Positions 4,716-21,721 of a stretch of DNA of 23,661 nt are shown piece by piece. The stretch spans positions 1 to 23,661 of IMG/VR virus record IMGVR_UViG_3300023210_000226, one strand, 5' to 3'. The position numbers and the translations under genes are program-made. This DNA is from a virus. Below the pieces are notes generated by a model. The model did no database searches and was not told where the DNA came from. It saw only the letters and a program-made list of their open reading frames with translations. Numbering within the stretch: the first letter of the stretch is position 1; each line of letters opens with the position of its first letter.

Positions 4716-4746
4716 CAAATATATAAATTCCAACTGACATTACAAA
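4716..4746 (-). promoter_or_regulatory. Bacteroidota-type promoter directly before the ERF gene
   Basis: On the minus strand TTTG (4746-4743) is followed after 19 nt by TATATTTG (4723-4716), an exact match to the Bacteroidota TTTG...TAnnTTTG promoter. The expected transcription start falls at about the A of the ATG at 4711, so the transcript may be leaderless. The -33 element overlaps the end of the upstream nuclease gene. Confidence 0.68.
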
Positions 4747-5117
4747 ATAATATCAAAATTATTGAAATTTTTTGCATACTTATTCGTTAAAGATAGTCGC
4801 ATAGCTTTCTGTTCTTCATTAGGAACAATAAAAAAACCATTGTGTTCATCGAACCAAATAGCAAAGAAATCGCATAAGTGCTTTGGATAAATGCCTCCCT
4901 CTCTATGTAAGGTAACTCTTGTATTATTGTGTTCAGGGTCTTTTTGCCTATCGGCACTTACATACTTTATCTGTACCTTAAATACCTTTCCATTTTTCTC
5001 TAATATGCAATCGTAAGGAGATGCGTCTAATAAGGGCATAGATACATTAAAACCTCTTTCCATTGCTCTTGTTGCAAATCTGTACTCGGCAAAGCAACCC
5101 TTCTGATTTCTATCCAT
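4740..5117 (-). CDS. PD-(D/E)XK endonuclease, PDDEXK_11-like
   Basis: This 125-aa protein starts MDRNQKGCFAEYRFATRAME, with Glu11 in the first helix. Asp36 lies in SPYDCIL, and Gln49-x-Lys51 in KVQIKY, so the core is E...D...QxK. This matches the small PD-(D/E)XK family often described as group-I-intron-associated endonucleases, which also occurs free-standing in phage recombination clusters. The frame extends to 5132, but Met at 5117 gives the family-like N-terminus and avoids the promoter-like sequence. It opens the recombination/replication operon, just after a strong terminator, and ERF follows. The role could be recombination nuclease or host-DNA degradation; only the fold is supported. 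Confidence 0.75.
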   Translation of the reverse strand: MDRNQKGCFAEYRFATRAMERGFNVSMPLLDASPYDCILEKNGKVFKVQIKYVSADRQKDPEHNNTRVTLHREGGIYPKHLCDFFAIWFDEHNGFFIVPNEEQKAMRLSLTNKYAKNFNNFDIIL

Positions 5118-5121
5118 ATCG

Positions 5122-5129
5122 CTAATATA
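5122..5129 (-). promoter_or_regulatory. Possible -7 promoter box before the PDDEXK gene
   Basis: TATATTAG on the minus strand is one base from TAnnTTTG and follows the U-tract of the 5131-5163 terminator. The junction with the gene (TATATTAGCGATATG) matches the ERF promoter junction (TATATTTGCAATATG) in length and in all but two bases. No good TTTG is found 19-20 nt upstream, so support is moderate. Confidence 0.4.
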
Positions 5130-5130
5130 C

Positions 5131-5163
5131 AAAAAAAAAGTGGCAATCTTACAGGATTACCAC
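5131..5163 (-). terminator. Rho-independent terminator after the structural/lysis block
   Basis: A 9-bp stem with one C-A mismatch (GTGGTAATC / GATTGCCAC on the minus strand) and a 6-nt loop is followed by nine U residues. It closes transcription coming from the structural and lysis genes and separates it from the recombination operon. Confidence 0.85.
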
Positions 5164-8045: not shown

Positions 8046-8549
8046 TTACAGCATCCATCCGTTAAATAAAGCGTTTTTATCAGGATATATCTCCTCGTTA
8101 TTGTTTGAATAATACTCTGGGAATTTGCTTGGTGCATTAAAACTTAAATAGTCGATAAGTCTTTGTGTGTAATACTCGGCATAATCTCTCTCCTTTGCTA
8201 TAAGCGAATCAATCTCTTGCTTGTCTGCTAAACTACTGTTTTCAGAGTTATGCTTAAATACACCTCCATTTGCAATAGTGTATGCTGCAAAAGGAAGATA
8301 CTCAACCATAGCGTAATGAATTAACATTGGTTGAACATAGTCGTTCACTAATGCCAAATAATCACCAGTAAGCGTATCGGCAATAATATCTGCGCTAATC
8401 TTGTTGTACAAGTCGCTTCCCAAATAGTTCTGAATGTGTATCTCTTGTGCAATCTTGATAAACTGAATAAATTTATCAGTATCAACGCTACCGCTTAAAG
8501 CAGTATTCTTCACAAGGTCGCTTCTCTTTATAAATATCGCTGTTGGCAT
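8046..8549 (-). CDS. Head-tail adaptor/connector-like protein (DUF6712-type)
   Basis: This 167-aa, mostly helical protein has the pattern seen in Bacteroidota phage head-completion proteins. It contains IQFIKIAQEIHIQNYLGSDL, then LTGDYLALVNDYVQPMLIHYAMVEYLPF, then a helix ending in SLADKQEIDSLIAKERDYA. It is encoded directly after the portal, overlapping it by 1 nt, the usual place for adaptor proteins that sit under the portal. The family link is from memory of the pattern, so the role is probable rather than shown. Confidence 0.7.
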   Translation of the reverse strand: MPTAIFIKRSDLVKNTALSGSVDTDKFIQFIKIAQEIHIQNYLGSDLYNKISADIIADTLTGDYLALVNDYVQPMLIHYAMVEYLPFAAYTIANGGVFKHNSENSSLADKQEIDSLIAKERDYAEYYTQRLIDYLSFNAPSKFPEYYSNNNEEIYPDKNALFNGWML

Positions 8550-9802
8550 TATTCTACGTTTTCAAGTTGTTCCTCTACCTTCTCTTTGACTTCTTCCTCT
8601 ATATCCTTTTTAATGCCTGTTTCCTTCTCTATCTCGGCTTCGCTGATAGCGTTAGTCAAGTCAGTAAATTCAAGCGGTTGTAAGGTCTTAAAATAGATGT
8701 CTAATTCGATTCCATTGTACTCAAGTATCTTCTCAAGTTCATCAAGAATAGTAACCTGCATTGGTCTGATTACGGTGTTATCCATAAGTACAGAAGCAGT
8801 TTGTAGTTCCTCTGCATTGTTGCCCAAACCAGATGTATCTTTAATGCCAACAAGCATAGGCGATACGATACGGTGTGATACCATTACCTTACGCATACTT
8901 TCGTCAGATAAGAATTGATATTGTTGGTGGGCATCTGATAGCTGTACTGGCTCAATAGTTGCAGCAAGTTCCTTACTATCGTTAAATGCCAAGATGAAAC
9001 GACCTGCGTTAGAACTACCGCTAAATTTATTGATAATACTTCTCTCAATAGCATCTCTCTGCTCTGGGTCAGGCGTACCATTGTTAAAGTTAATAAGCAT
9101 AGAAGGACTTAATCCGTTCTGAATGTTATTGATGTGATAGTTTGCAATTTCCTCCTCAAGTTCTGCATACTGCAATCCCCCCTGATAATCCACAGGACTA
9201 TAATACTTAAATCCAGCACGATATGGTTTAATGTAAAGTATCTCAATAGGTTGATTAGAGAACCCAAATGCGGGTATTCTCTTTAACTTATCGCCTTGTT
9301 TAGCTTCTGACCAATTAGAATGGTAAAAATACCCCTCTATTTCGCCTTTAGAGTTGCATTTCTCGGCTCTTAACGTCTCAACTGGTATATGCTCTACCAT
9401 TGCGATTTTTGTGCGGTCTTTGCTATAAATAACTTGCAATGCAGCTTGACCCATCATTTTGTAGTCGTGGCATATTCTCTTAATAACATTCTTCTTTAGA
9501 AGTTCTTTCATCTGCTGATATTGGACATCCTTCTCTCTACTGTCCGTAGCATCAAGACCCCTTCCGTATATCATTTCAGAAATGCCATTGATTGCAGCGT
9601 TGTTTGTAGGACTTCCATTATACCTATCTATTAGATAGCTGAAATAATCGTTATCCTCTCCGTATGCCACAAAATCATCGTTATAGTATTCTTTTATCTC
9701 TGGTCTTGTGTAAGAACCGAGTTGTACTATATGTATTTTACCCTCCTCTTTTTTCTCTATGGTGGGTCTGTTATTTGCGTAATGTCTTACTTTTTTAGCC
9801 AT
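8549..9802 (-). CDS. Portal protein
   Basis: At 417 aa this has the sequence flavour of Bacteroidota siphophage portals. YGEDNDYFSYLIDRYNGSPTNNAAINGISEMIYGRGL near the N-terminus (in pieces YFSYLIDRYNGSPTNNAAI and SEMIYGRGL) resembles the portal entry region. HIPVETLRAEK and GYFYHSNW follow, then the stem/wing part HINNIQNGLSPSMLINFNNG, and IVSPMLVGIKDTSGLGNNAEELQ near residue 310-330. The last 35 residues are a highly charged coiled coil (EEEVKEKVEEQLENVE). Twelve such subunits form the DNA gate of the head. It lies 7 nt after the 117-aa protein and is followed by the adaptor. Unusually, it comes after the capsid gene. Confidence 0.85.
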   Translation of the reverse strand: MAKKVRHYANNRPTIEKKEEGKIHIVQLGSYTRPEIKEYYNDDFVAYGEDNDYFSYLIDRYNGSPTNNAAINGISEMIYGRGLDATDSREKDVQYQQMKELLKKNVIKRICHDYKMMGQAALQVIYSKDRTKIAMVEHIPVETLRAEKCNSKGEIEGYFYHSNWSEAKQGDKLKRIPAFGFSNQPIEILYIKPYRAGFKYYSPVDYQGGLQYAELEEEIANYHINNIQNGLSPSMLINFNNGTPDPEQRDAIERSIINKFSGSSNAGRFILAFNDSKELAATIEPVQLSDAHQQYQFLSDESMRKVMVSHRIVSPMLVGIKDTSGLGNNAEELQTASVLMDNTVIRPMQVTILDELEKILEYNGIELDIYFKTLQPLEFTDLTNAISEAEIEKETGIKKDIEEEVKEKVEEQLENVE

Positions 9803-9809
9803 CTTATTA

Positions 9810-10163
9810 TTAGTCTATAAACACAAATTCGTTATCATAACTATCTTCTACTGTGTAATCGTTTTTACCTACTTCGTATTTAGGATAGTCAGTTTGATTT
9901 GTTACATATACTACTCCTCTGTAAATTTCCTCAACAGTATCTTTTACTACAAGCGTATAATATGTCTCTGCCTTTAGGTCATCAAACGCTGCTGTTATAG
10001 TCATAACATTTGTAGAAGCACTAAAACTATAAGAGTTTGCATAATCTCTTGATGCCCTTGTTGCTTTATCAATCAAGGTTAATGTAGTGCCTCCAACAGC
10101 AGATGTTTTTCTGGGTTTAATCTTTATATCTTGATTTCCAGTAGATGTTGTTAGTATGTGCAT
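9810..10163 (-). CDS. Small beta-rich virion-region protein, function unknown
   Basis: This 117-aa protein begins MHILTTSTGNQDIKIKPRKT and alternates hydrophobic and polar residues throughout (VMTITAAFDDLKAETYYTLVV), suggesting a beta-sandwich. It sits between the tail-tube-like and portal genes. A strong promoter precedes it, overlapping a terminator, so it and the portal-to-lysis genes can be transcribed apart from the capsid genes. No function recognised; a decoration or connector protein is a fair guess. Confidence 0.65.
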   Translation of the reverse strand: MHILTTSTGNQDIKIKPRKTSAVGGTTLTLIDKATRASRDYANSYSFSASTNVMTITAAFDDLKAETYYTLVVKDTVEEIYRGVVYVTNQTDYPKYEVGKNDYTVEDSYDNEFVFID

Positions 10164-10194
10164 ATTAAAGTAACAATCAACATTATGTTTGTTT

Positions 10195-10226
10195 CAAAGA
10201 TACAAAAAAGGGGTCGCATTTGCAAC
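10195..10226 (-). promoter_or_regulatory. Bacteroidota-type promoter overlapping a terminator
   Basis: GTTG (10226-10223) and TATCTTTG (10202-10195) are separated by exactly 20 nt on the minus strand. The -7 element is perfect. The spacer is made up of the terminator hairpin and its U-tract. Two repeat copies lie directly upstream. It would start transcription about 30 nt before the 117-aa gene and drive the portal, adaptor, fibre and lysis genes. Confidence 0.65.
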
Positions 10227-10229
10227 CCC
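10204..10229 (-). terminator. Rho-independent terminator after the tail-tube-like gene
   Basis: On the minus strand an 8-bp stem with one mismatch (GGGGTTGC / GCGACCCC, loop AAAT) is followed by six U residues. It lies 27 nt after the stop of the tail-tube-like gene and doubles as the spacer of the next promoter. Confidence 0.82.
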
Positions 10230-10262
10230 CTATTAAATTCACAACCCTATTAAATTTATGAA
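10229..10262 (-). repeat. Pair of TATTAAATTYAYR intergenic repeats
   Basis: Two direct copies (from 10231 and 10248, 17 bp apart) lie between the tail-tube-like stop codon and the terminator/promoter; the second runs through the stop codon itself. Same family as the repeats at 5222 and 22189-22327. Placed directly upstream of a -33 element, they could be activator or repressor sites. Confidence 0.6.
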
Positions 10263-10810
10263 GGGTCTCTTTGAGTAGATTCAGTAGCAGTAGCACTTGT
10301 CATTCCTGCAAATGGATTTGAATCAGTACCTCCATCAACAAACGATGGCATACGGATTTCATTAGCAGTCAAAGTTAAAGTGTAACCATTTAAATCACCC
10401 ATTGCAGTACCTGTTACAGCAGTACCACCAGTAACATCAGCACCATTATCAGAACCAACTAAAAGAAACTTGTCATCAAATGTTTGAACTACAACGTGTG
10501 GTCTACCATACGCCATAAGTTTTAACTCTTTGTTGTCCTCTTTAGTTAGCTTGAAAAGTGTTACGTTTAACACCTGCTCGAAGAATGTTGTTCCATTCTC
10601 CATAGAAGATGTAATATTTGTTTCAAGAGAAGAATTACCTTTTACGTCATAGGTGTGGTAGGTAAAAGTTCCAGTCATATCAGTAACCTCATCATTTGAA
10701 CCAAATGTAAGCGTTCCTAAATCACCGAAATCTACAAAGTGTAGTTTCTTAATGCCACCAACCGCATCTTTACAAGGTCTTAATCTTCCGCCAGTTAAAT
10801 CACAAGCCAT
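10256..10810 (-). CDS. Tail-tube-like (major tail) protein
   Basis: This 184-aa protein begins MACDLTGGRLRPCKDAVGGIK. It has a central segment with SMENGTTFFEQVLNVTLFKL and ends with GTAMGDLNGYTLTLTANE. The latter resembles the C-terminal beta-hairpin region of phage tail tube proteins. Size and location just after the capsid gene also fit a highly expressed tube or decoration protein. A hairpin lies before it and a strong terminator after it, so its expression can be set apart from both neighbours. The alternative is a head decoration protein. Confidence 0.6.
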   Translation of the reverse strand: MACDLTGGRLRPCKDAVGGIKKLHFVDFGDLGTLTFGSNDEVTDMTGTFTYHTYDVKGNSSLETNITSSMENGTTFFEQVLNVTLFKLTKEDNKELKLMAYGRPHVVVQTFDDKFLLVGSDNGADVTGGTAVTGTAMGDLNGYTLTLTANEIRMPSFVDGGTDSNPFAGMTSATATESTQRDPS

Positions 10811-10828
10811 TATTTATATTTTTTTAGT

Positions 10829-10855
10829 AAAAGGGGTAGAGTTACCCACCCCTTT
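10829..10855 (-). terminator. Hairpin between capsid and tail-tube-like genes, weak terminator
   Basis: A perfect 8-bp stem (AAAGGGGT / ACCCCTTT) with a 10-nt loop follows the capsid stop. Only four U residues follow before ACTA, so termination should be partial. It could also protect the 3' end of capsid mRNA. Confidence 0.6.
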
Positions 10856-10869
10856 CGATTAAACAATTA

Positions 10870-11850
10870 TTATGCTAAAGTTAGCAACGCCAAGTCAGAA
10901 CCGATACCGTATTGTACACCAGCAGTATATCGCATTATAATGCGTACATTTTGGCTTCCATCAAGGTCAGCCATATCGATAACTTTTACTTCGTTGTGGT
11001 CAGACAATAGACCTGTACCGAAGTAGATGTTAGATGCCTCACCAGCAAGGATGTGGTCAGATGGCATACCGGGAGCGTGTTGGATTTTGATACCCTCGAA
11101 TGAAAGAGCGTTACCTCTATCATACCAAAGAGAACCTTGTGCGCCAACACCAGCAGCACCTTGTCCACCTGTTGCAAATCCTCCTAATGCACGTACATAC
11201 GCTTGAAGTGCGATAGTTGGTACATAGATGGTTAAATCTTCTTTTCCGTAAACAGCAGAAGGAATAGAATCAACTACATTTCCAAGAAGTGTTACGATGT
11301 TAGAAGAAGTGAAAGATGTTTCAGCACCGTTAGCAGCATCATTTACATCAGAATCAGCAGCAGCAAGAACTGTAAGACCGTCAAATTCACCAGCGTTGGC
11401 ATTTACACCACCCCAGATGTTTTGTTCAGTTTTTTCAGCAACTTTAGCTGCAACGTGTCCTAAAATAAAGTCAGAGAAAGATGAAGGCAATTTGTCAAAT
11501 GCAGAATATCCCATTTGTACAGCTTCCCAGTCAGCACGAAAATCTTTCTTACACAACTCAAGGTTTACTTGAAACTCCTCTGGCTGAAGGATACGCTCTG
11601 TAAGCGTTAAGCTATCAGCAGTAGCAGAAAAGTCGCAAGAAGCATTAGCGATAAAGTTAGTTGAAGCAACTTTCTTTACAACTTCTTTATATTTTACATT
11701 AGGTTTAATAGTGATTGCACCATCAGCCAATGTTTTGCCAGTTAAGAGTGCAGCAGAAATGTATTTTCCTGCAAACTCCCCAGCATAAGTAGAGGTGATG
11801 GTATCAACAGAACCATTACCAGCGTATAAATTTACTTTTTGATTACTCAT
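10870..11850 (-). CDS. Major capsid protein (HK97-fold type expected)
   Basis: This 326-aa protein begins MSNQKVNLYAGNGSVDTITS. It shows the composition and order of a phage major capsid: an N-terminal arm, EEFQVNLELCKKDFRADWEA, FILGHVAAKVAEKTEQNIWGG, an Ala/Gly-rich middle, and the A-domain-like end DMADLDGSQNVRIIMRYTAGVQYGIG. The frame is open to 11913, but the extra 21 residues overlap the scaffold gene and look unnatural, so Met at 11850 is preferred. It lies 10 nt after the scaffold-like gene and before a hairpin. It assembles the head shell with the scaffold and is probably trimmed by the upstream protease. Confidence 0.88.
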   Translation of the reverse strand: MSNQKVNLYAGNGSVDTITSTYAGEFAGKYISAALLTGKTLADGAITIKPNVKYKEVVKKVASTNFIANASCDFSATADSLTLTERILQPEEFQVNLELCKKDFRADWEAVQMGYSAFDKLPSSFSDFILGHVAAKVAEKTEQNIWGGVNANAGEFDGLTVLAAADSDVNDAANGAETSFTSSNIVTLLGNVVDSIPSAVYGKEDLTIYVPTIALQAYVRALGGFATGGQGAAGVGAQGSLWYDRGNALSFEGIKIQHAPGMPSDHILAGEASNIYFGTGLLSDHNEVKVIDMADLDGSQNVRIIMRYTAGVQYGIGSDLALLTLA

Positions 11851-11860
11851 TTTGTTATTA

Positions 11861-12427
11861 TTATAATTTAGAAAATACTCGGTCAAGGGTTGAAGCAGGG
11901 CGGTTCTGACCAAATTTAATCACCTCGCTTTTTTCAGTTTTTTCAGATGGTGTGTGTGCAATCGGCTCGGCTGCTGGTTCAGCAGATAGCTTTTGTACTT
12001 GAGATGAAAGTTCAGCTTTTTCTTGCTCAACTTTACCATATTCTACCATCATATCCTCTTTTAAGGATTTAATCATATCTTCAAGTTCTGCGATTTTAGA
12101 GTTAAAATCCTCCTCTTTCACATAACCTTCCATAAGTTCTACTTCTTCGGAAACTTCTTCTTCCAATTCAGTAGCTTCTTCTTTAGATTCTTCAGACAAC
12201 TCAACTTCTTCAGTTGAATCGGATTCTAAAGCAGCTTCCACTTCTTCTTCAGTAGCTTCTTCCACTTTAGCAGAATCTTCAGATAATGCAACTTCCTCTA
12301 CTTCTGGTGTATCGGTAACTTCTTCGGCTGCAACTTCAATGTTCTCAACCTCGTTTACTTCTTCAGCAGTAATAGCAGAGAGTTTTTGCATAATATCATT
12401 CAGAATGTTTGTAGCTTTGCTCTCCAT
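11861..12427 (-). CDS. Acidic coiled-coil protein, probable capsid scaffold
   Basis: This 188-aa protein is extremely rich in Glu (residues about 20-105 are mostly Glu, Val, Ala, Ser, Thr). A likely coiled coil follows at about 105-150 (KIAELEDMIKSLKEDMMVEYG). The basic end NRPASTLDRVFSKL could be the capsid-binding hook, as scaffold C-termini often are. Position directly before the capsid gene and after the protease fits a scaffold. The acidic low-complexity stretch could vary in length between strains. No enzymatic motif is visible. Confidence 0.78.
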   Translation of the reverse strand: MESKATNILNDIMQKLSAITAEEVNEVENIEVAAEEVTDTPEVEEVALSEDSAKVEEATEEEVEAALESDSTEEVELSEESKEEATELEEEVSEEVELMEGYVKEEDFNSKIAELEDMIKSLKEDMMVEYGKVEQEKAELSSQVQKLSAEPAAEPIAHTPSEKTEKSEVIKFGQNRPASTLDRVFSKL

Positions 12428-12489
12428 ATTATTGTTAATTAACAGTTATATTTAATAAAGTAACAAGTACGCTCTGTACTGTTAGATTT

Positions 12490-12630
12490 TCAGGCATTTA
12501 TTTTACCTATCCCCTGACTTCTTAAAGTGCCATCACAGCATCTTCTTGAATATGTTTTACCATTTTTACAGAGACAACCCCTTCTTGAATTTGTTGGAAC
12601 TTGTCTCCCTACTGTTTCTTTACTTTTCAT
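12490..12630 (-). CDS. Cysteine-rich miniprotein, 46 aa
   Basis: The frame runs from ATG 12630 (overlapping the protease stop, ATGA) to TGA at 12490. Four cysteines are arranged CLC...CC (19, 21, 31, 32), and the end reads DGTLRSQGIGK. I have seen similar C-x-C...CCDG...QGIG patterns in Bacteroidota phage miniproteins, but know no function. A small zinc-binding fold is possible. It is short enough to be missed by length-filtered gene calling. The 62 nt that follow it before the scaffold gene hold only a weak inverted repeat (GTACGCTCTGTAC). Confidence 0.7.
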   Translation of the reverse strand: MKSKETVGRQVPTNSRRGCLCKNGKTYSRRCCDGTLRSQGIGKINA

Positions 12631-13958
12631 TTCTTACTTGATTTAGGGTGTTTACTTGGCAATAAGTCATAGTCGGTAGTATATTTAGCATTTTGAGGTC
12701 TGCCATTTTTTAGTAGATACATATAAGCATTTACCCTTGCCTGACCCCATTGTTCGGCTGACTTTACCTCTGGACTATGAGACGTTTGAAATGCACCAAC
12801 ACCACGCTGATATACCGATTTTAATTGACCAACAGTAGTTCCGTAACCAAGTTTAGATTTATACTGCTCATTGAAGTCATCTGCTTTTTTCTGGAGTGAT
12901 TTCAGCACTCTGTCGGGTACAGTAACTCCCCTTGACTTCCCAGCAGCACCCTCTGGATTGCGATTGCTTCCTCGTTTTGGATTAGGGTTTGGAGTATCGG
13001 ATTTTGGTGCTTTAGTGCTTGGCTTAATTCTTCCTTTGTCATCATATTCAGCTAATTCAATTTCACCTAATTCTTTTAGTTTAGACCTACTCCAAGCAAG
13101 TCCTGCCTTACCACCCCATAACAAGTATGAAATAGTGCCACACGCTTTAGAATCACTTGGGTCGTAGTATTCTGCTGCCCTTGAAAGGTATGAGTACATC
13201 CTCTTAATCGTTGATACACTCAATTTTTCACCTCTACTCAACTGCTGCGCTCTTATTTTCCCCACAGAGGTAGCGCAACGATTATCCACCTTCTTGTTTA
13301 GTTCTATACCCCTTTTTGCATTATTTCTAACTCCGCTACCATAATCTCCGTATGTCTTTAGATTCAGTTTCCCAACTTCAATACTATCTACAATTTCCAA
13401 AAGCACTTCGGCAGCATCTGTTTCTTTCTCTACCATAGACATAGCAATCTTATCGGTAAAATAACCCTCTATTGAAAATCCTTTTACCTTACCTGTCTTA
13501 ACATAGTCATTCCAAACCTCATCATTATTGACTTTCATTGATACCATCCAAGTACCAATAGGCATCTTTAAGCCATACTTGCGTGATTTATCGTGAGTTT
13601 CATCTTCTATAATCCAAGATTCAACTACTGACAATCCAGACAGTTCTGCTTGATGCTCTAAAGTAGATTTATTTTGGTTTCCTTTCATTAGAAACAGTTC
13701 AGATGCCTTACGGACAGTATCTTCAGAGAAATATATGTAATACTCATCTTCTCTATCCCTTCTATATATTTTTTTATTAGGAATAAGGGCAGCACCCATC
13801 AAAATACGCTTCTCTTTATCAACGTCAGCAAGTTCAACCTTAATTTCGTCTTTCAATGCCACAAAGTTCTCCTCTATCGCTGGTTGTTCAACAATAGATA
13901 TGGCATCAATGCCAGACATAAGTTCTTCTTCGTCTATAAATAATTCTATTACTTTCAT
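12627..13958 (-). CDS. Prohead protease (XkdF-like) fused to extra C-terminal domains
   Basis: This 443-aa protein has an N-terminal part (about 50-170) that reads as an XkdF-type capsid maturation protease. It carries ILMGAALIPNKKIYR, then His102 in TLEHQ, then the GTWMVSMKV strand, and Ser162 in VKGFSIEGYF; His and Ser are the likely catalytic pair. Residues about 225-295 hold a second unit, RCATSVGKIRAQQLSRG...MYSYLSRAAEYYDPSD...LLWGGKAGLAW, known from phage capsid-region polyproteins. After a Pro/Asn/Lys-rich linker (about 310-345), residues about 345-435 resemble DUF5824 (RGVGAFQTSHSPE, AYMYLLKNGRPQNAKY). It is 1332 nt long, upstream of scaffold and capsid. The extra domains may guide or be cleaved from the protease; this is inference. 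Confidence 0.82.
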   Translation of the reverse strand: MKVIELFIDEEELMSGIDAISIVEQPAIEENFVALKDEIKVELADVDKEKRILMGAALIPNKKIYRRDREDEYYIYFSEDTVRKASELFLMKGNQNKSTLEHQAELSGLSVVESWIIEDETHDKSRKYGLKMPIGTWMVSMKVNNDEVWNDYVKTGKVKGFSIEGYFTDKIAMSMVEKETDAAEVLLEIVDSIEVGKLNLKTYGDYGSGVRNNAKRGIELNKKVDNRCATSVGKIRAQQLSRGEKLSVSTIKRMYSYLSRAAEYYDPSDSKACGTISYLLWGGKAGLAWSRSKLKELGEIELAEYDDKGRIKPSTKAPKSDTPNPNPKRGSNRNPEGAAGKSRGVTVPDRVLKSLQKKADDFNEQYKSKLGYGTTVGQLKSVYQRGVGAFQTSHSPEVKSAEQWGQARVNAYMYLLKNGRPQNAKYTTDYDLLPSKHPKSSKK

Positions 13959-13967
13959 ACTATTAAA

Positions 13968-16088
13968 TTAACCAAATGATGCTGTATTTGTTATGTTTCT
14001 GTCTAATTCTTGTTGTGTTGAAATGTCTTTTCCTACTACAAATGCCTTGATTGGTTTTGCCTGTTGCCCAGCAACGACTTCCGCTAATTGAGATGTCTGT
14101 GATGCTCCGACTACATTAAAGTCTGGTGCTTCTATCGTCATTCCACCTCCAGTAGAAGGGTCTTTTCCAGGAATTTTAACAGCCATTATATCTCTAACCT
14201 GCTTCATACCCATAGCAAGTACAGCAGTAGCCTGTGCTATATTCCAAACACCGTATGGTTTAGCACCAAGCGCAGCAGTAAACGCCTCTCTGGTATTCAT
14301 TATAGCCATTGCAACAGAAGCTGCCTTACCAACAGTAGAACCCTCTCCAGCAACAGCTACAATAGCGTTTCCAACTTGATTTGCTATAGCTATTTTAGCG
14401 TCTCTTTCTTGCTCTGCGAGTGCTATTTTTGTTTGTGAATTTTGCGCCTCTGCATTGAGTATTTGTTGGTCTATATCTATAACAGATTGACCATTAGCTA
14501 TCCTTATATCCCTTATTAGATTTAAGTTATCTATTTCTGTTTGAAATCTATTCTGCTCTATCTGTTTAGCTACCTCAACTCTATCTATCTCTGAATCTGT
14601 ATAACTTTTTAGATAATCTTCCTGAAATTTAAGTTTGTCTGAATTGAACTTTTGTATAGCTAATCTTTCAGCCTCAAATGCCTTTGCTCTGTCATCAGCA
14701 TCTCTTATTGCTCTATTTCTTTCTAATTTTTTTCTTTTTGTATCAAAGGATGCCTGAAGCTGAATCATTACGTCATTATGTTCCTGCTCGGCTAACTCAA
14801 TAGATTCGTTATAATCTTTTTCAGCTTGTAGTTTTTCATCAGCACTTGCATCAGATTCTTTAAACTCATCTAACCTTAACTTCTGTCTATCTTTAAATTG
14901 TTTAAGCCTTATATGAAGTTCGGCTTTAGCAAACTTCTCCTGTTCATTTATCTTCTCATCTTCAGTAAGTAAGGTTTGGTCTATTGACTTCTGACGATAG
15001 CTTTCCTCAAGTTTACTTAAATCAAGTAATTGTTGCTTAAAGTCTCTTTCTCTTTTTCTACCTCCCTTTTTGCGCTCATTATTTTCAATGTCAATAAATT
15101 TTATAAGAGCATCAACTTGTTTGTCTATTTCTTTTATTTCTTCACGATTAACTTCTTTCAAGTCAGCTAATCTCTCTCTTCCAGAATTTAACCTGACCTC
15201 TTCTCTTGAAATCATAGTGTTAATGTTAACAAGCTGTGCGTCTGTTAACTCCCCGCTATCTCTTTCTTCCTCAAGCCTCGCTAATGTTCTCTCTTTACTC
15301 TGATTTCTTACTATTTGAGTTTTTATCTTCTCGGCATTTTCTATTCTTTCAAGGTCTTGCTCTATTATTAAGTTTATCTTTTCAGAGGTAAGTTCTTCTA
15401 TTTTGTTTTGAGCAGCACGAGACATAGCTAATCTTGTTATAGACTCTCTATATAAATCATTTTGCTTCGTAGCCTCCTCTGTTTTATTAGCAACATCAGT
15501 TAACGTAACCTTTGCCTTATCTAATTGCTTTAAGTATTCTGGGAACTCTTTTTTAAGTCTATTTATCGCATCTGTTTGTTCTTCTTGAGATTTATTAGAA
15601 TCCTGAAGGGTCTTTATGTATATTTCAAATGAACCTGCTGTACCTTGAACCTCACTACCAGCGTCTTTAAATGTTTCTTTTAATAGTTGACTTCCATTTA
15701 CTAACTCCTTAAACAGCCTATACAAATCATCTCCGTATGTTATTAGAAGCTGAATACCAATAAGAAGTGCCGACTGTGCTGTGAATAATGATTTTATACT
15801 GGTCATAAAAGAACCAGTAGCATCTTTAGATGCCTTAAATAAGTTGATTAACTGCGATAAGTTGTTCGCAATAGCTGTAAAACCAAAACTCGCATCAGAA
15901 GCAAGTCGGCTGGTTTCCATCAAGATTGCATTGTTCAGACCAGAAGTTGCTCTTGTATTGTCTGTTGCTTTAGCAACCTTTTTTTGTGATGTAGCTAATT
16001 TATTTAAACTTGAAGATGTTGCATCTATTGTTTTTTTAGCAGCCTTATCCTGTATCTGTATCGATATGAGTATCTTTTGTTCAGCCAT
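13968..16088 (-). CDS. Tail tape measure protein
   Basis: This 706-aa protein is dominated by coiled coil from about 150 to 560 (LARLEEERDSGELTDAQLVN, KQLLDLSKLEESYRQ, and the like). Hydrophobic stretches occur at about 101-118 (LFTAQSALLIGIQLLITYG) and about 570-635 (VAMAIMNTREAFTAALG, IAQATAVLAMGM). That is the usual form of a siphovirus tape measure, which sets tail length; at about 0.15 nm per residue it predicts a tail near 100 nm. Its start overlaps the end of a 53-aa gene. The chaperone gene that usually sits next to it is here almost 5 kb upstream. Confidence 0.9.
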   Translation of the reverse strand: MAEQKILISIQIQDKAAKKTIDATSSSLNKLATSQKKVAKATDNTRATSGLNNAILMETSRLASDASFGFTAIANNLSQLINLFKASKDATGSFMTSIKSLFTAQSALLIGIQLLITYGDDLYRLFKELVNGSQLLKETFKDAGSEVQGTAGSFEIYIKTLQDSNKSQEEQTDAINRLKKEFPEYLKQLDKAKVTLTDVANKTEEATKQNDLYRESITRLAMSRAAQNKIEELTSEKINLIIEQDLERIENAEKIKTQIVRNQSKERTLARLEEERDSGELTDAQLVNINTMISREEVRLNSGRERLADLKEVNREEIKEIDKQVDALIKFIDIENNERKKGGRKRERDFKQQLLDLSKLEESYRQKSIDQTLLTEDEKINEQEKFAKAELHIRLKQFKDRQKLRLDEFKESDASADEKLQAEKDYNESIELAEQEHNDVMIQLQASFDTKRKKLERNRAIRDADDRAKAFEAERLAIQKFNSDKLKFQEDYLKSYTDSEIDRVEVAKQIEQNRFQTEIDNLNLIRDIRIANGQSVIDIDQQILNAEAQNSQTKIALAEQERDAKIAIANQVGNAIVAVAGEGSTVGKAASVAMAIMNTREAFTAALGAKPYGVWNIAQATAVLAMGMKQVRDIMAVKIPGKDPSTGGGMTIEAPDFNVVGASQTSQLAEVVAGQQAKPIKAFVVGKDISTQQELDRNITNTASFG

Positions 16089-16242
16089 TACTGTATGCTT
16101 TAGATTCCTTTACTCGTTTTACTTGTCTTTTTACTGCATCCCAATCTTTTGGTGCTTTGTACATACCCTTTGCAATATCTATATTGTGAGAGATGCCATA
16201 CCAATCAGAAACCTGCAATAAATCTATGAGTTGCTTTATCAT
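16081..16242 (-). CDS. Small tail-module protein, 53 aa
   Basis: The frame runs from ATG 16242, which overlaps the stop of the large tail protein (ATGA), to a TGA at 16083-16081 just inside the tape measure gene. It reads MIKQLIDLLQVSDWYGISHN and ends in a strongly basic tail (DAVKRQVKRVKESKAY). Both ends are translationally coupled to flanking genes, which is good evidence that it is real. No function recognised. Its place before the tape measure suggests a tail assembly helper. Confidence 0.7.
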   Translation of the reverse strand: MIKQLIDLLQVSDWYGISHNIDIAKGMYKAPKDWDAVKRQVKRVKESKAYSNG

Positions 16243-18557
16243 AATACGTTCAATAATTCTAATTTAGATTCACCTGTTTTTAAGTTAGTATCTATTGAAT
16301 TTATAGTAAAAACTTTGTCTCCTATCTGAAACCTGTCGTTTAGCTTATAATTAAGTAATATACTACTCGGTAAATGTGCTGTTAGTTTAAATATCCTTTT
16401 CTTGGCATTAAATACATCTTCTATGTATGTTTGATAGAACTTCTTAAATAGTGAGTTTGTTGTCCCCCCATAGTTAGTTTGATTCCATTCATCTGTCTCG
16501 TCATCGAAATTTATAGTGAAATCAGGTGCTACTGAAGATGTGCCATTCTCAACTGTATTTGATGGTTTCCAATAACTTAATAATTCTTCGTGTGATACTC
16601 CATTCCAATTTATACCCCCTCCAGACGTAAGTCCAGATATTCTAATGCCATAGAATAATGCTGGTGCTGTCAATACAGAATCATAATTTGCTGTTGGTTG
16701 AGGTGTTGCATCTGCATCTGGTTTAAAGTTGTTCCCTGCTGAATATCCCCATTGAATGTCAGTTAAACCTATACCGCTTGTATTCTCATCAATAAGTCTT
16801 TCAAACTTAAAATGTTCAAATGGCGTTTCAACCTTATACGGTTTTCCCCTATCTACATTTTGAGGGTGATAAATAGCATCTCCAAACACTTCGTTATTAA
16901 CTTCTTCGTGGTTAAGCATTAACAGGCTTTTAGGTTCTTTGTTCTTAAACTCAATCTCGCTAAATGCTAATGCAGATTCTATGTCTGTTCCTGAAGAATC
17001 AACATATTTACTTATATCAAAGATTTTAGGGTTATCAGTGTAATAATCATCAAGAGGAAGAACCCTTATTTTACCGTAATCAGCATCATTTCTGTCATCT
17101 ACATAATAAGACGTAAGATTAAATGTCTTGAATATACCTGTTATAAAATCTATTATTTTCAGTTTTGGTATTCTTTCTGTTGGTACTATTTCTCCACTAT
17201 TTGTAGCTGTTATTGAGTTAGGTTCATAATAAGCATCATATATTGTTGAATAAGGTAGTGATGAAGTATCAGCACGTTGTTGCCTTATCCTCAAACTAAA
17301 ATCAGCTTGAAAACCACCCTCTGAATTAACAAGAAATTTAACACCCCAATCCTTTAAATCTGAAGGTTGTATTGATGGTATTGCTAATGTGGTTGATACC
17401 GTTTGAGTTGATGTTAAATTATCAAAAGACCCTATCGTAGAATTATTATCCAAAGTATCTATCATAGTTATACTGTAAGAGGTTGATGCAGTAGTTGTAA
17501 CCGTTAAGTCTAAAATAATTCTATATCTATCGGCTTGTTTAAGAGAACCGCCATCTAAAAATGTTTGAACCCTTAAAACAGAATTAGTTTCTCCACCAGA
17601 GGTTATAAACGAAGGGGTTATGCTTCCGTTAAATGGATATTCAAAGAAATCTGATAATTGGTCTCCAGAAGCATATGAAAAGCTGGATAGCGTAGTTTCT
17701 ACGGTTTCATCGTCTCCTCCTATTTTCCCTTTTTCTCGGCTTAACCACATATACAAACCCCTATTCGTAGTTGTTCCATCACCAGAAAATGCCTCTGAAC
17801 CAAAGAAGTCTCTTGTGAATTGTAAATTAACAGGATAGTCATTTGCTATTGTGTACTTATCCTCTATTGCTTCTATTATATTTAAAAGTCTTATAGCTGG
17901 TTTTAAATCATCAAATTGAAGTGCAACATCTTTGTTGTGCGAGTTGTTCTGATGCCACGACAAGTCTCCAGAAATTGTTGATTGTGAATGATTAGTGTCA
18001 GAGTTAAAATATAATCTTTTTGAGTGTGTTATAAGTGGCACGATAATCGGGTCGTACTTTACAACGCCATCGACAGTTTGGTTTAGGTTACTCGTTAACC
18101 TTGTCTTTGTATTTGCACTTGTGTATTGGTATCTAAAATTGTCAAGCCAAGTGAGTGACTCTAATTCGTCATCACCAAGCAAGTCTTTTAAGGTAACGGT
18201 GTTTCCGTAAAATGTAAGATTGTAGGCGTATGGCTTGTTATCCTTCATCTTAACACCATTAAGAAATACCTTGCCATCTCTAAATGGAATATAGTTTATC
18301 TCAAGTTGGGCATCTACTTTCTTCCTTGCATCAAACGCATCCTCTGAAGATATGAAGTAGTTGTAGAAATGTTTAAATATCTTGTTGTTCTTCTTTGAGG
18401 CAGGTATTGTAAATGATTGTGAAAAGTCCGTAAACACTTTGGATATATCTCGTATATCCTGTATTTTAGATGTTAGAGAGATTGTCTCATCTTCAAATAA
18501 ATCTACTGCCTGATAAACATTATCGGCATCTTTGATGTACAATACTACCTTATTCAT
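16239..18557 (-). CDS. Large tail/baseplate protein (distal tail or hub-like)
   Basis: This 772-aa protein starts MNKVVLYIKDADNVYQAVDL. It then has the segment DISKVFTDFSQSFTIPASK followed by NNKIFKHFYNY (about 35-68), which I associate with large tail proteins of Bacteroidota siphophages. The rest is beta-rich with many Thr, Ser, Asp and Tyr residues. The end (KLNDRFQIGDKVFTINSIDTNLKTGESKLELLNVL, in pieces FQIGDKVFTINSI and SKLELLNVL) is hub-like. No peptidase or glycosidase motif is evident. It overlaps its upstream partner by 1 nt and is followed by the 53-aa gene and the tape measure. Baseplate or tail-tip placement is inferred. Confidence 0.72.
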   Translation of the reverse strand: MNKVVLYIKDADNVYQAVDLFEDETISLTSKIQDIRDISKVFTDFSQSFTIPASKKNNKIFKHFYNYFISSEDAFDARKKVDAQLEINYIPFRDGKVFLNGVKMKDNKPYAYNLTFYGNTVTLKDLLGDDELESLTWLDNFRYQYTSANTKTRLTSNLNQTVDGVVKYDPIIVPLITHSKRLYFNSDTNHSQSTISGDLSWHQNNSHNKDVALQFDDLKPAIRLLNIIEAIEDKYTIANDYPVNLQFTRDFFGSEAFSGDGTTTNRGLYMWLSREKGKIGGDDETVETTLSSFSYASGDQLSDFFEYPFNGSITPSFITSGGETNSVLRVQTFLDGGSLKQADRYRIILDLTVTTTASTSYSITMIDTLDNNSTIGSFDNLTSTQTVSTTLAIPSIQPSDLKDWGVKFLVNSEGGFQADFSLRIRQQRADTSSLPYSTIYDAYYEPNSITATNSGEIVPTERIPKLKIIDFITGIFKTFNLTSYYVDDRNDADYGKIRVLPLDDYYTDNPKIFDISKYVDSSGTDIESALAFSEIEFKNKEPKSLLMLNHEEVNNEVFGDAIYHPQNVDRGKPYKVETPFEHFKFERLIDENTSGIGLTDIQWGYSAGNNFKPDADATPQPTANYDSVLTAPALFYGIRISGLTSGGGINWNGVSHEELLSYWKPSNTVENGTSSVAPDFTINFDDETDEWNQTNYGGTTNSLFKKFYQTYIEDVFNAKKRIFKLTAHLPSSILLNYKLNDRFQIGDKVFTINSIDTNLKTGESKLELLNVL

Positions 18558-19936
18558 TATCTAATGTTATTTATTTTATCAGCAGCAACGTCAAATTCTA
18601 ACGAGTATTGAACGAGTTTGTCGTTTACTTTTGTTTTCATCTGAAGCGATTGCGTCTTTAACTTTAACGGTACAATCTTTTCTTCGTCAGTTAGCCTTGT
18701 CATCCAAACTTGTTCGGATAGCATAAGCTGACGTATATGTTCGTTACACGATTCGTCTATGTAATCGGTGTTTAGTGTTATACTTTCATTACCTACTAAA
18801 TTCAGCGTTCTTTGTTGGTGTGCGGAGGTATCGTATGTAAAGTTTGCAAAATCTAATACTGATGCCTTAAAGTCATCAGTCTTAATACTAATAGATTCAT
18901 TGTTTCTTCTTGTAAAATATAAGTCTTGAAATGCGCCAAATTTATTGACAAATGTTACTCTAATCGGCTCATACTTTGAGCAGTCAAATGTTTTTACTTT
19001 TAGAACGTGGGTAAATACACTTGACATTTCATAGTTATCTCCAGTTCCCATTATATTTGATTCAAGGGAAAGAGTTGTGTCGCTATCTATCGCTGTTATT
19101 GCAGATATTGTATTATCGGTTAAGTTTCTTATAAAATAACTTGTTGAGGCTGTTGTGTTAAATTCAGCAGAGCCATCAATGAGTTTGTTAGCAACTGAAG
19201 TGGTTGTCGTTCCTGTTGTTACTTTTTTGTAATAGTTTACATAAATCTCATCAACCTCTCCTATGTCGAAAGAATCGCTAAAGGTATCAAGTAGTGAGTT
19301 TTCCTCAAAAATACCACCATCCTCAAGCACTCTCTCTTTATAACTATCAGATGCAGAATTACTATCAGATGCTATATATTGAATTTTTTGATTAGTATTA
19401 TCATCATCTGATATTGTGGTTGACTTGATTGTTTGCCCATTCAATCTAAACAAAACCTCCTTTGCTCTTTCGGCAGACACAGGTATATTTATACTCCTAT
19501 CCTCAACCCTATAAAGACTGGCTATTGAAATCATAAGACCATTATCAAAGTCTGGATTTATGCCTTCCTCAAAGTAACCATATCCATCTGTTGCTATAAA
19601 TTGGTCGCTATAATTACTCGGTGTTACTGTTGGTGAGGATTGTGGGTTTCCATCTTCATCAAATACTGTTATCACAGGATTTACCCAAACTGTGTAGCTA
19701 TCGTATTCTCCATCATACTTGGCATCTATATAATCTCGTATAAGTTCGGATATTTCAAATACTACTTGGTTATTCCCTTCCAACTCTGCCTTAACTATGG
19801 TGTACTTTAAATCAGCAGCATCTGGTGTTACATCTTTTACGCCCTCATATATGTATAGTTTAAGTTCTACCTCAAACAAAGACATATGATAAACCTTTAT
19901 GTAAAACGGACTTCTTGTGTTTATTAGCTGTGCCAT
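18557..19936 (-). CDS. Minor tail protein, beta-rich
   Basis: This 459-aa protein begins MAQLINTRSPFYIKVYHMSL. The first 100 residues look like a beta-sandwich (VELKLYIYEGV, VVFEISELIRDYIDAKYDG). A Ser/Thr-rich middle (about 235-300) with GTTTTSVANKLIDGSAEF resembles a flexible or surface segment. The end, MKTKVNDKLVQYSLEFDVAA, is again beta. It is paired with the 772-aa protein by a TAATG overlap and sits between tail completion proteins and tape measure. Bacteroidota phages often carry such a pair of large tail proteins here. The precise role is unknown. Confidence 0.7.
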   Translation of the reverse strand: MAQLINTRSPFYIKVYHMSLFEVELKLYIYEGVKDVTPDAADLKYTIVKAELEGNNQVVFEISELIRDYIDAKYDGEYDSYTVWVNPVITVFDEDGNPQSSPTVTPSNYSDQFIATDGYGYFEEGINPDFDNGLMISIASLYRVEDRSINIPVSAERAKEVLFRLNGQTIKSTTISDDDNTNQKIQYIASDSNSASDSYKERVLEDGGIFEENSLLDTFSDSFDIGEVDEIYVNYYKKVTTGTTTTSVANKLIDGSAEFNTTASTSYFIRNLTDNTISAITAIDSDTTLSLESNIMGTGDNYEMSSVFTHVLKVKTFDCSKYEPIRVTFVNKFGAFQDLYFTRRNNESISIKTDDFKASVLDFANFTYDTSAHQQRTLNLVGNESITLNTDYIDESCNEHIRQLMLSEQVWMTRLTDEEKIVPLKLKTQSLQMKTKVNDKLVQYSLEFDVAADKINNIR

Positions 19937-20491
19937 CTATTCTCCTTTTAAAACGTATGCGTTGCCTTTCTTCACATAGCCAACACTTGTTAATATATCA
20001 TCTAATTTTTCTGTTACATCTTCTTTTAGTGGAGGTAACATACCATCTATTATGTTTTCAAATGCCCTCTGAACAACCTCGCCTATATAATTAGCTGGTG
20101 CAATACCACGAAGGGATATGGCTTCTCCAATTTTATATGCGACAGAGGCAATGTTGCTTTCTGTTCTGGGAAGTGTATTCCCTTTAAAATCCTTTAGTGT
20201 TACTGGTTTCTGTCTAATCCAATCCTTTATAGCATCTACGTTAGGACTAAAAGGTTTAGTACCCTCATCTACTCCCTTTAGGTAGGCATTTCCGTAAAGG
20301 TTTATATCCATTCCGTTGTTTTCTGACCTAACTTCAAGTGAACTGCCACCAGCACCGCTTGATTCAACAGGTGCGTTTATATTGCCAGTTCTCGGTCTTG
20401 CTTTCTGATACGATTCAAGGAAATACTTAATCAGCTTCGTCTCTGCGAATGATTTTATATATGCCTCTGTATTTTTGAATCTAATCTCCAT
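19937..20491 (-). CDS. HK97 gp10-like head-tail joining / tail completion protein
   Basis: This 184-aa protein has a central stretch with the hallmark of gp10-like proteins: INLYGNAYLKGVDEGTKPF, then DAIKDWIRQKPV, with an N-terminal helix (EAYIKSFAETKLIKYFLESY) and a C-terminal helix pair. These proteins join head and tail or finish the tail end. It is 1 nt from the downstream tail protein and overlaps the upstream gene by 1 nt. Family link is moderate. Confidence 0.65.
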   Translation of the reverse strand: MEIRFKNTEAYIKSFAETKLIKYFLESYQKARPRTGNINAPVESSGAGGSSLEVRSENNGMDINLYGNAYLKGVDEGTKPFSPNVDAIKDWIRQKPVTLKDFKGNTLPRTESNIASVAYKIGEAISLRGIAPANYIGEVVQRAFENIIDGMLPPLKEDVTEKLDDILTSVGYVKKGNAYVLKGE

Positions 20492-20961
20492 TAGCAGACT
20501 GTTACAACATTATTAGGAATAGATACTTTTAAGTTTAATGCCCAGCCAGTAAGCAGATTCTCAAATCTATCTTCAAACAATGTGGCAGTTGCATCTGAAT
20601 CTAATACGTAGTTGTTATCGTTCAAATCTCCACGTCTTAATTTAGATTGCAGCCTGTTGATTACCGAAAGTTGGGTATTTAGTACATCGTGTTTATTGTC
20701 TAAACCTTTGTATGGCACAGAACTGCTACCAAACCTATCTTCTTTACTTTCGTCAACAATATCCATAGCTATCACTTGAATTGTGAATGTAATGATGTGG
20801 TCAGAGAATATAGCATCCTGTATGTTTATGTGCGACAAAGGAAATATGCTTTGCTTTGACAGGTCAACATCCATAATGTTGCCAAATGTAACTGTGCTAA
20901 CAAAGTCGCTTGAATTTAACTCTGTGTATATCGTATCTATTAAATCATAAAATTCTTTCAT
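20491..20961 (-). CDS. Tail terminator-like protein
   Basis: This 156-aa protein begins MKEFYDLIDTIYTELNSSDF and alternates strands and helices. It contains FGNIMDVDLSKQSIFPLSHINI, and its middle and end look beta-rich (HIITFTIQVIAMDIVDES, GWALNLKVSIPNN). This fits small proteins that cap the tail tube under the head. Its ATG overlaps the TGA of the -1 frame of the chaperone gene, not that of the 0 frame, which links it to the frameshift product. Terminator function is inferred from size, fold and place. Confidence 0.6.
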   Translation of the reverse strand: MKEFYDLIDTIYTELNSSDFVSTVTFGNIMDVDLSKQSIFPLSHINIQDAIFSDHIITFTIQVIAMDIVDESKEDRFGSSSVPYKGLDNKHDVLNTQLSVINRLQSKLRRGDLNDNNYVLDSDATATLFEDRFENLLTGWALNLKVSIPNNVVTVC

Positions 20962-21721
20962 CTCTTGTACGCTTTCTTAATCATTGCTGCCTCTAATTCA
21001 TTCTTTTCTTTCTCAAAGGTTAGGAAGTTGAGGCATTGGAAAATTGGAAGGTTGGTAACTTCGTTGAACTTGAGAATGTTTCCTCCAGCAAGTGCATAGA
21101 TTGATTGATACCAACCCCATTTCGAGCCAAAGTTTGCTTGAGCAGATAAGTCTGTTCCTCCGTCAGATTTTTCTGTATATAACTCGGTATAGCTTTCAAC
21201 AACTCCATCCCTAAATCGTAAAAAAAAACCATAGCACTCATTACTACATCAAGAGGCATCTCTTTCATAAGGTTTGATACCTCCTCACTTGGTTCGTAAG
21301 GCGCAATAGTATATTTGTCCTTGCTCTTGAAATTAACTGGTCTATATAGTGCTGCCATCGCCTTGTGCATCATTTGCCAATCGGAGATGTTATCTTCTAC
21401 GTCTATATATGCCCCAAGAGAAATGCTTTCTAAAGATGGCTCAAATCCCATATCCACCCCAAGCAAGTTAAACCTTCTTATCAGACTTGGCTTTTCTTCA
21501 AATGCCTTGCTAATAATCTCCAATACCTTTTCGGCATCTTTTGCAGGAATAGACAGAACGTCTTTCAAGGAAATGTCGCAGAATATCTCTATGGTCTTTA
21601 ATGCCAAGAAATCATCTGCGCCCTCGTTTTCTTCGAGTATCTTAACATATCTCTGATACTGCCCAAGCGTAATATCCGATAAGGCAGTTGGAACTGATAA
21701 CTCTATTTGTATTTCCTTCAT
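20958..21721 (-). CDS. Tail assembly chaperone, frameshifted long form (G-T type)
   Basis: Frame 0 (21721-21020) encodes 233 aa beginning MKEIQIELSVPTALSDITLG. At codons 165-167 (GTT TTT TTT) lies a run of nine T. A -1 slip there continues into an 87-aa frame reading LRFRDGVVESYTELY and later SKWGWYQSIYALAGGNILKF and FQCLNFLTFEKEKNELE. That frame has no ATG of its own before the last residues, yet is open to a TGA at 20958 that overlaps the next ATG. The long product would be 254 aa. Siphovirus tail chaperones are typically made in such short and long forms to coat the tape measure. The WGWYQSIY...FEKEK ending looks more conserved in character than the frame-0 tail. Confidence 0.78.
21020..21721 (-). 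CDS. Tail assembly chaperone, unshifted short form
   Basis: This 233-aa product of normal reading has a helical N-terminal body shared with the long form. Pieces include ITLGQYQRYVKILEEN, FLALKTIEIFCDISLKDVL, KDAEKVLEIISKAFEE and DWQMMHKAMAALYRP. After Phe167 it goes on with YDLGMELLKAIPSYIQKNLT and ends in a Ser/Thr-rich tail. The shared region looks like a chaperone of Bacteroidota siphophages. Both forms probably coexist, as with lambda gpG and gpGT; the ratio cannot be read from sequence. Confidence 0.75.
   Translation of the reverse strand: MKEIQIELSVPTALSDITLGQYQRYVKILEENEGADDFLALKTIEIFCDISLKDVLSIPAKDAEKVLEIISKAFEEKPSLIRRFNLLGVDMGFEPSLESISLGAYIDVEDNISDWQMMHKAMAALYRPVNFKSKDKYTIAPYEPSEEVSNLMKEMPLDVVMSAMVFFYDLGMELLKAIPSYIQKNLTEEQTYLLKQTLARNGVGINQSMHLLEETFSSSTKLPTFQFSNASTS
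21220..21228 (-). promoter_or_regulatory. T9 slippery site for -1 frameshift
   Basis: Nine T residues on the minus strand give codons G-TT TTT TTT T-AC, which allow both P-site and A-site Phe tRNAs to re-pair one base back (T TTT TTT heptamer). A start-less open -1 frame of 87 codons follows. Polymerase slippage on the run could give the same result. Confidence 0.75.

Follow-up and report, generated by a model that had tools for sequence, protein, structure and literature searches.

The locus examined here raises the question of whether one gene of a metagenomic virus makes two main proteins and, if it does, at which step of expression the second one arises. The window, by which we mean the whole 23.7-kb stretch of DNA that was analysed, carries on its minus strand a gene that begins with an ATG at 21721 and ends with a TAA at 21020-21022 (21020..21721). 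Its 233-aa frame-0 product matches phrog_32199, a family of unknown function (E=1.5e-23), and consists of a conserved N domain of 167 aa followed by a frame-0 tail of 66 residues. Codons 165-168 (GTT TTT TTT TAC) contain a run of nine T residues on the minus strand (21228-21220; A9 on the plus strand), within which lies a single in-frame copy of the heptamer T_TTT_TTT (21221-21227). Read from the window sequence, a -1 slip after the second TTT would produce a 254-aa fusion through a -1 frame extension of 87 codons on the minus strand (LRFRDGVVES...KKAYKR, 20961..21221), whose stop codon, a TGA at 20958-20960, overlaps the ATG of the next gene at 20961. Overlaps of this ATGA type between stop and start are present in 157 of 229 homologues. 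Another TGA (21249..21251, minus strand) closes the -1 frame 20 nt upstream of the run, the sole ATG of the extension sits close to the extension's end, and no open reading frame of at least 60 aa begins inside the extension with ATG, GTG or TTG. The original prediction had described the run, the extension that lacks a start until near its end, the overlapping stop and the upstream TGA, and each of these features was confirmed at the positions given here.

As the frame-0 stop lies 201 nt past the slip, frame-0 codons 168-233 and codons of the -1 frame occupy the same bases (21023..21220, minus strand). Chance was evaluated in two ways. The -1 frame was open in 0 of 5610 stretches of 66 codons taken from the upstream coding part of the gene, and random synonymous recoding of the frame-0 tail still left the -1 frame open in 0.4% of trials. 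The window holds one other A9/T9 run, a minus-strand T9 at 5131-5139 that touches the listed TTG start of an open reading frame at 4740-5132 and is probably located 5' of the true start.

When the N domain, the extension and alignments of the two were used as queries, 293 non-redundant homologues were obtained, and the addition of loci fetched by a DNA motif brought the set to 363. By comparison across this set, which spans many divergent clusters, the extension is kept in every homologue and, in 363 of 363, lies one frame back (-1) from that of the N domain. Homologues with the same fusion had been proposed as a check in the original prediction. The run comprises nine T in 349 sequences and ten T in 14, and in none is it shorter, longer or broken. 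The concern that eight or ten T would leave only one real frame does not hold for the family, as T8 is absent and the few T10 runs retain the -1 fusion. In a scan of the collection with the motif itself (T9, 4 bases, TTTAGG), 113 of 115 loci among the matches listed were the slip gene, while two T8 versions of the motif gave 0 of 240 at the motif among the matches listed. A relative with the same run and a broken -1 frame, which had been named as evidence against the prediction, was seen once, as a lone nonsense codon in the otherwise normal homologue L147; a single nonsense codon in frame 0 was likewise found in L079, also otherwise normal.

These hundreds of relatives strongly support a programmed -1 frameshift. 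They also decide against the view that the window records a sequencing error or a decayed gene at a homopolymer. A T9 run is a typical site of error, and the window comes from a metagenomic virus record; however, the run and frame relation are identical in 363 sequences, including two isolated Nonlabens phages (P12024L and P12024S) and a prophage carried on a 3.9-Mb contig. We therefore reject error or decay, to which we attach a negligible probability. Among the relatives, the Nonlabens phages and loci in a Winogradskyella bin and a Bacteroidetes bin point to flavobacterial hosts.

The two Nonlabens phages also bear on whether the extension could be a separate gene begun by re-initiation. In both, the 3' part of the extension is annotated as a separate 55-aa gene whose ATG overlaps the frame-0 stop, an arrangement that would suit re-initiation. 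Across the family, however, no ATG occurs before codon 40 in 275 of 286 complete extensions, no ATG, GTG or TTG precedes codon 25 in 237 of the 286, and the first residues of the extension (FL.FR) are among its most conserved. A re-initiated gene was rejected because most extensions have no start codons, and we consider it scarcely conceivable. The annotated 55-aa product of P12024L (P12024L_41; L162 9528-9695) corresponds to the 3' portion of the -1 extension. In the GenBank records of P12024L and P12024S the fusion goes unannotated, and in P12024L it appears as two separate hypothetical genes. The PHROGs collection similarly keeps the N domain (phrog_32199) and the extension (phrog_38404) as two unlinked families of unknown function.

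Whether the bases after the slip truly encode two proteins, as had been proposed, was addressed through synonymous constraint, calculated as codon identity at positions with the same amino acid relative to the expectation from codon usage in pairs below 80% identity. The ratio is approximately 1.0 along most of the N domain, jumps to 2.2 at the T9 run, remains raised at 1.3-2.05 across most of the overlap and drops to about 1.0 in the last 8-10 codons of the overlap, before the frame-0 stop. The wobble T of codons 165-167 is 100% conserved, compared with 34-61% expected. At fourfold sites of the -1 frame, 28% of comparisons show a difference within the overlap, versus 57% in the N domain. In simulations along the tree in which only the -1 protein was constrained (54 tips, 300 runs), an average of 3-4 tips, and never more than 23 of the 54, kept frame 0 open under a criterion of 65 open codons that is slightly above the shortest real tails (about 61 codons), whereas frame 0 is open in 54 of 54 real sequences. 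The simulated fourfold difference was 0.53-0.58, versus 0.28 in the real sequences, and frame-0 amino-acid identity is 0.49 compared with 0.40 expected for a frame that is merely stop-free.

The constraint profile, the simulation and the excess of frame-0 identity lead us to conclude that selection acts on both frames past the slip and that about 190 nt encode two proteins, a reading of comparative sequence data that bears out the true overlapping coding region of the original prediction. The competing view, that the frame-0 tail is non-functional and an RNA or DNA signal accounts for the synonymous constraint past the run, appears quite improbable. The frame-0 tail has just 25 codons in the Nonlabens phages (elsewhere 39 to 86, mostly 53 to 66), with slip-to-stop overlaps of about 80 nt in these phages and roughly 120-270 nt in nearly all other relatives, and the final part of the tail has low confidence in an AlphaFold model, both of which would fit a dispensable tail. 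But the constraint covers the greater part of the 190 nt and weakens towards the frame-0 stop, frame 0 stays open far beyond what the simulations allow, and no conserved fold was found in the RNA. In addition, the AlphaFold model of the short form contains a long helix (157-185) that crosses the slip site into the frame-0 tail. The model of the extension likewise begins as a helix, and as both ends start helical, the shift would exchange the second half of a helix.

Dual coding also bears on a conserved TTTAGGG shortly after the run (21209..21215, minus strand), which encodes Phe-Arg in the -1 frame and Leu-Gly in frame 0. This motif places a TAG (21211-21213) in the third frame, where it would immediately end a product of the U8 type, and a third-frame stop 6 nt past the run is present in 223 of 229 homologues. 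Four relatives without this stop keep YR/IG, similar residues in both frames. Since these four lose the TAG and yet keep both proteins, the third-frame stop was rejected as a selected signal and is better explained by dual coding.

Two machines could carry out the slip, and the choice between them depends largely on why the run is so long. A ribosomal -1 slip requires only the T_TTT_TTT heptamer. This heptamer is in frame in all homologues, though it is contained in any T9. The run takes its outer T's from codon 165 (Val/Leu/Ile) and codon 168 (Tyr/Trp), and conservation of Val/Leu-Phe-Phe-Tyr/Trp alone would also give nine T. In four homologues from four clusters, however, a flanking T has been lost (GGT, AGT or AAT at codon 165, or CTG at codon 168), and all four have gained a T on the opposite side, leaving the run at 9 or 10. 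Extra T's occur in 16 of 363 sequences, and the probability of finding them in four of four by chance is about 3e-6 (hypergeometric; a rough figure given the relatedness of the sequences). The mechanistic argument from the rule of at least nine T rests on these four informative sequences. By comparison across the family, a homopolymer of at least nine T thus appears to be selected as such, as the run never falls below nine in 363 homologues. Nine is also the length of efficient RNA polymerase slippage in bacteria (PMC5009743).

The other genes of these phages were examined for similar runs. Runs of A or T of at least 8 are depleted there in every codon phase, with 8 A runs of at least 9 seen versus 41 expected and 4 T8 runs seen versus 20 expected. 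T7 shows no special depletion in the heptamer phase. Replication slippage would be another possible explanation of the depletion of long runs.

Evidence of a stimulatory RNA element was sought downstream of the run. No consensus RNA structure was found 3' of the run among relatives, folding of this region was no better than that of shuffled sequences in 16 relatives, and an Rfam search returned no match. A candidate hairpin that pairs TTTAGGG with CCCTGA about 20 nt further on suits some subfamilies; it was rejected as a stimulatory element, with 5 of its 6 outer pairs kept in just 96 of 229 homologues and hardly any covariation.

The maintenance of at least nine T, together with the lack of a conserved RNA structure, favours polymerase slippage over, or along with, the ribosome. 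From these sequence patterns, including the depletion of long runs in the other genes, we judge a polymerase route alone to be slightly better than an even prospect. The broader proposal, that this flavobacterial phage family relies on RNA polymerase and not on the ribosome to set its chaperone isoforms, by slippage at a run that must hold nine or more T, falls just short of an even chance. Transcripts would then be of three kinds, U9 (233 aa), U10 (254 aa) and U8 (about 169 aa), with the two long ends sharing the same 190 nt. According to the main alternative, the same two-form chaperone would be made only by a ribosomal -1 shift on U_UUU_UUU, the extra T's being conserved Val/Leu and Tyr/Trp codons. 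Ribosomal -1 shifting is the route used by known tail chaperones (PMC5009743), the in-frame heptamer is present in every homologue, and the residues flanking the run are mostly V/L/I and Y/W. The four offset losses of a flanking T, the missing stimulatory structure and a T7 depletion in other genes that is independent of heptamer phase speak against it, and we hold it to be possible, at clearly less than an even chance.

Taken together, the results make it very probable that a programmed slip yields a two-form, dual-coded, chaperone-like protein. In the proposed mechanism, two main proteins would be made from one reading start. We infer that most of the mRNA is read straight through to give the 233-aa form, and that some of it is shifted by one base at the T9 run to give the 254-aa form, in which the 87-residue extension would replace the last 66 residues. 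The slip would most likely occur at least partly in RNA polymerase, with U9 copied as U10, since selection keeps at least nine T and a ribosome needs seven; ribosomal slippage at the included T_TTT_TTT may also occur. By analogy to lambda, the role of the common N domain may be to coat the tape measure protein, and that of the extension to recruit the tail tube protein.

In the neighbourhood of the slip gene, the gene order is TerL, the slip gene, a 156-aa neck candidate, proteins of 184 aa, 459 aa and 772 aa, the tape measure, protease, capsid, tail tube and portal, where TerL lies past the end of the window and is known from relatives. The 156-aa protein (phrog_30964; 20491..20961, minus strand), a neck or tail-terminator candidate, is a conserved neighbour. 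The probable tape measure protein (706 aa; 13968..16088, minus strand) has the same position in relatives and in the prophage. The original prediction had pointed out that the slip gene is almost 5 kb from the tape measure; the probable tape measure gene (16088) indeed lies 4.87 kb away, with the slip gene four genes upstream in the tail module. This order is common to the prophage and in part to the Nonlabens phages. The arrangement at 8549-21721 is permuted, as the tail module with the tape measure precedes protease, capsid, tail tube and portal, and the same permutation is found in the prophage on the 3.9-Mb contig (L765). In one open reading frame of this region (12627-13958), a head protease domain similar to XkdF (Peptidase_S78_2, E=1.5e-15) is joined to a C-terminal domain that resembles DUF5824 (E=7e-7).

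Of the predicted tail chaperone gene, the frameshift and dual coding stood, and the chaperone identity gained no significant profile or fold link to a known chaperone. Pfam and NCBIfam contained no family match for either half of the slip gene, a profile comparison with lambda G and T gave no match, and neither did a fold search of solved structures in the PDB. Among predicted viral structures, the matches were to uncharacterised phage proteins, together with weak matches to chaperones (ranks 44 and 50), and Flavobacterium phage 6H gave a weak fold match. Fold similarity to both halves was seen in eight uncharacterised BFVD proteins of 226-267 aa, with mostly weak matches to the extension; these entries (A0A516L611, A0A6J5SVK3, A0A6J5N0W0 and others) may be in-frame fusions of natural origin or the result of homopolymer errors. 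Placed first in a tail module, a two-form -1 fusion corresponds to the lambda G/GT design, and on this architecture and gene order the slip gene is best read as a tail assembly chaperone. A two-form tail or neck protein with some other function is unlikely, if not negligibly so. The negative searches of chaperone families and solved folds and the distance to the tape measure gene would agree with such a function, but a two-form -1 fusion that heads a tail module beside neck and tail genes follows a known chaperone design, and the nearest named fold matches, weak as they are, include chaperones.

The analysis unites two families of unknown function in one gene, and a simple DNA motif (T9, 4 bases, TTTAGG) locates that gene in viromes. 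The phage family is flavobacterial and occurs in marine and freshwater settings, and its rule of at least nine T offers a clear test of phage polymerase slippage as a source of chaperone isoforms. In the literature library searched, no paper dealt with a frameshift in chaperones of flavobacterial phages, a result that does not prove there is none.

Frameshifted tail chaperones are textbook knowledge. The slip gene shares with lambda gpG/gpGT and its siphovirus and myovirus counterparts the use of one gene, a slip towards the 3' end of the upstream frame, the -1 fused extension and the position at the head of the tail genes. In lambda-type systems both forms are made in a fixed ratio, bind the tape measure and tail tube proteins and stay out of the virion. 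It differs in that the lambda chaperone gene adjoins the tape measure gene, which here is 4.9 kb away, and lambda G/GT has no detectable sequence similarity to it. Classical -1 ribosomal sites have the in-frame heptamer that is also present here, whereas the downstream stimulatory structure that is common, not obligatory, at such sites was not found. In Thermus dnaX and Shigella spa13/mxiE, alternative C-termini likewise arise from a stretch of about nine A or T (PMC5009743). Transcriptional slippage genes have mRNAs of varying length at the run. Those systems involve other proteins and hosts, and at this locus it is sequence conservation that points to polymerase slippage. The clearest departure lies in the overlap. 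In G/GT, the slip is near the end of the upstream gene and the overlap is short, with 19 nt annotated between G and T in lambda and mean slip-to-stop distances of 26 and 36 nt in sets of chaperones (PMC10274946), whereas here it extends over 201 nt and is dual coding. The overlap is thus several times the usual length, and as both ends are conserved, the short form has its own tail with a likely function. We regard the slip gene as a real variant of the lambda G/GT device, distinguished by a dual-coding overlap of unusual length.
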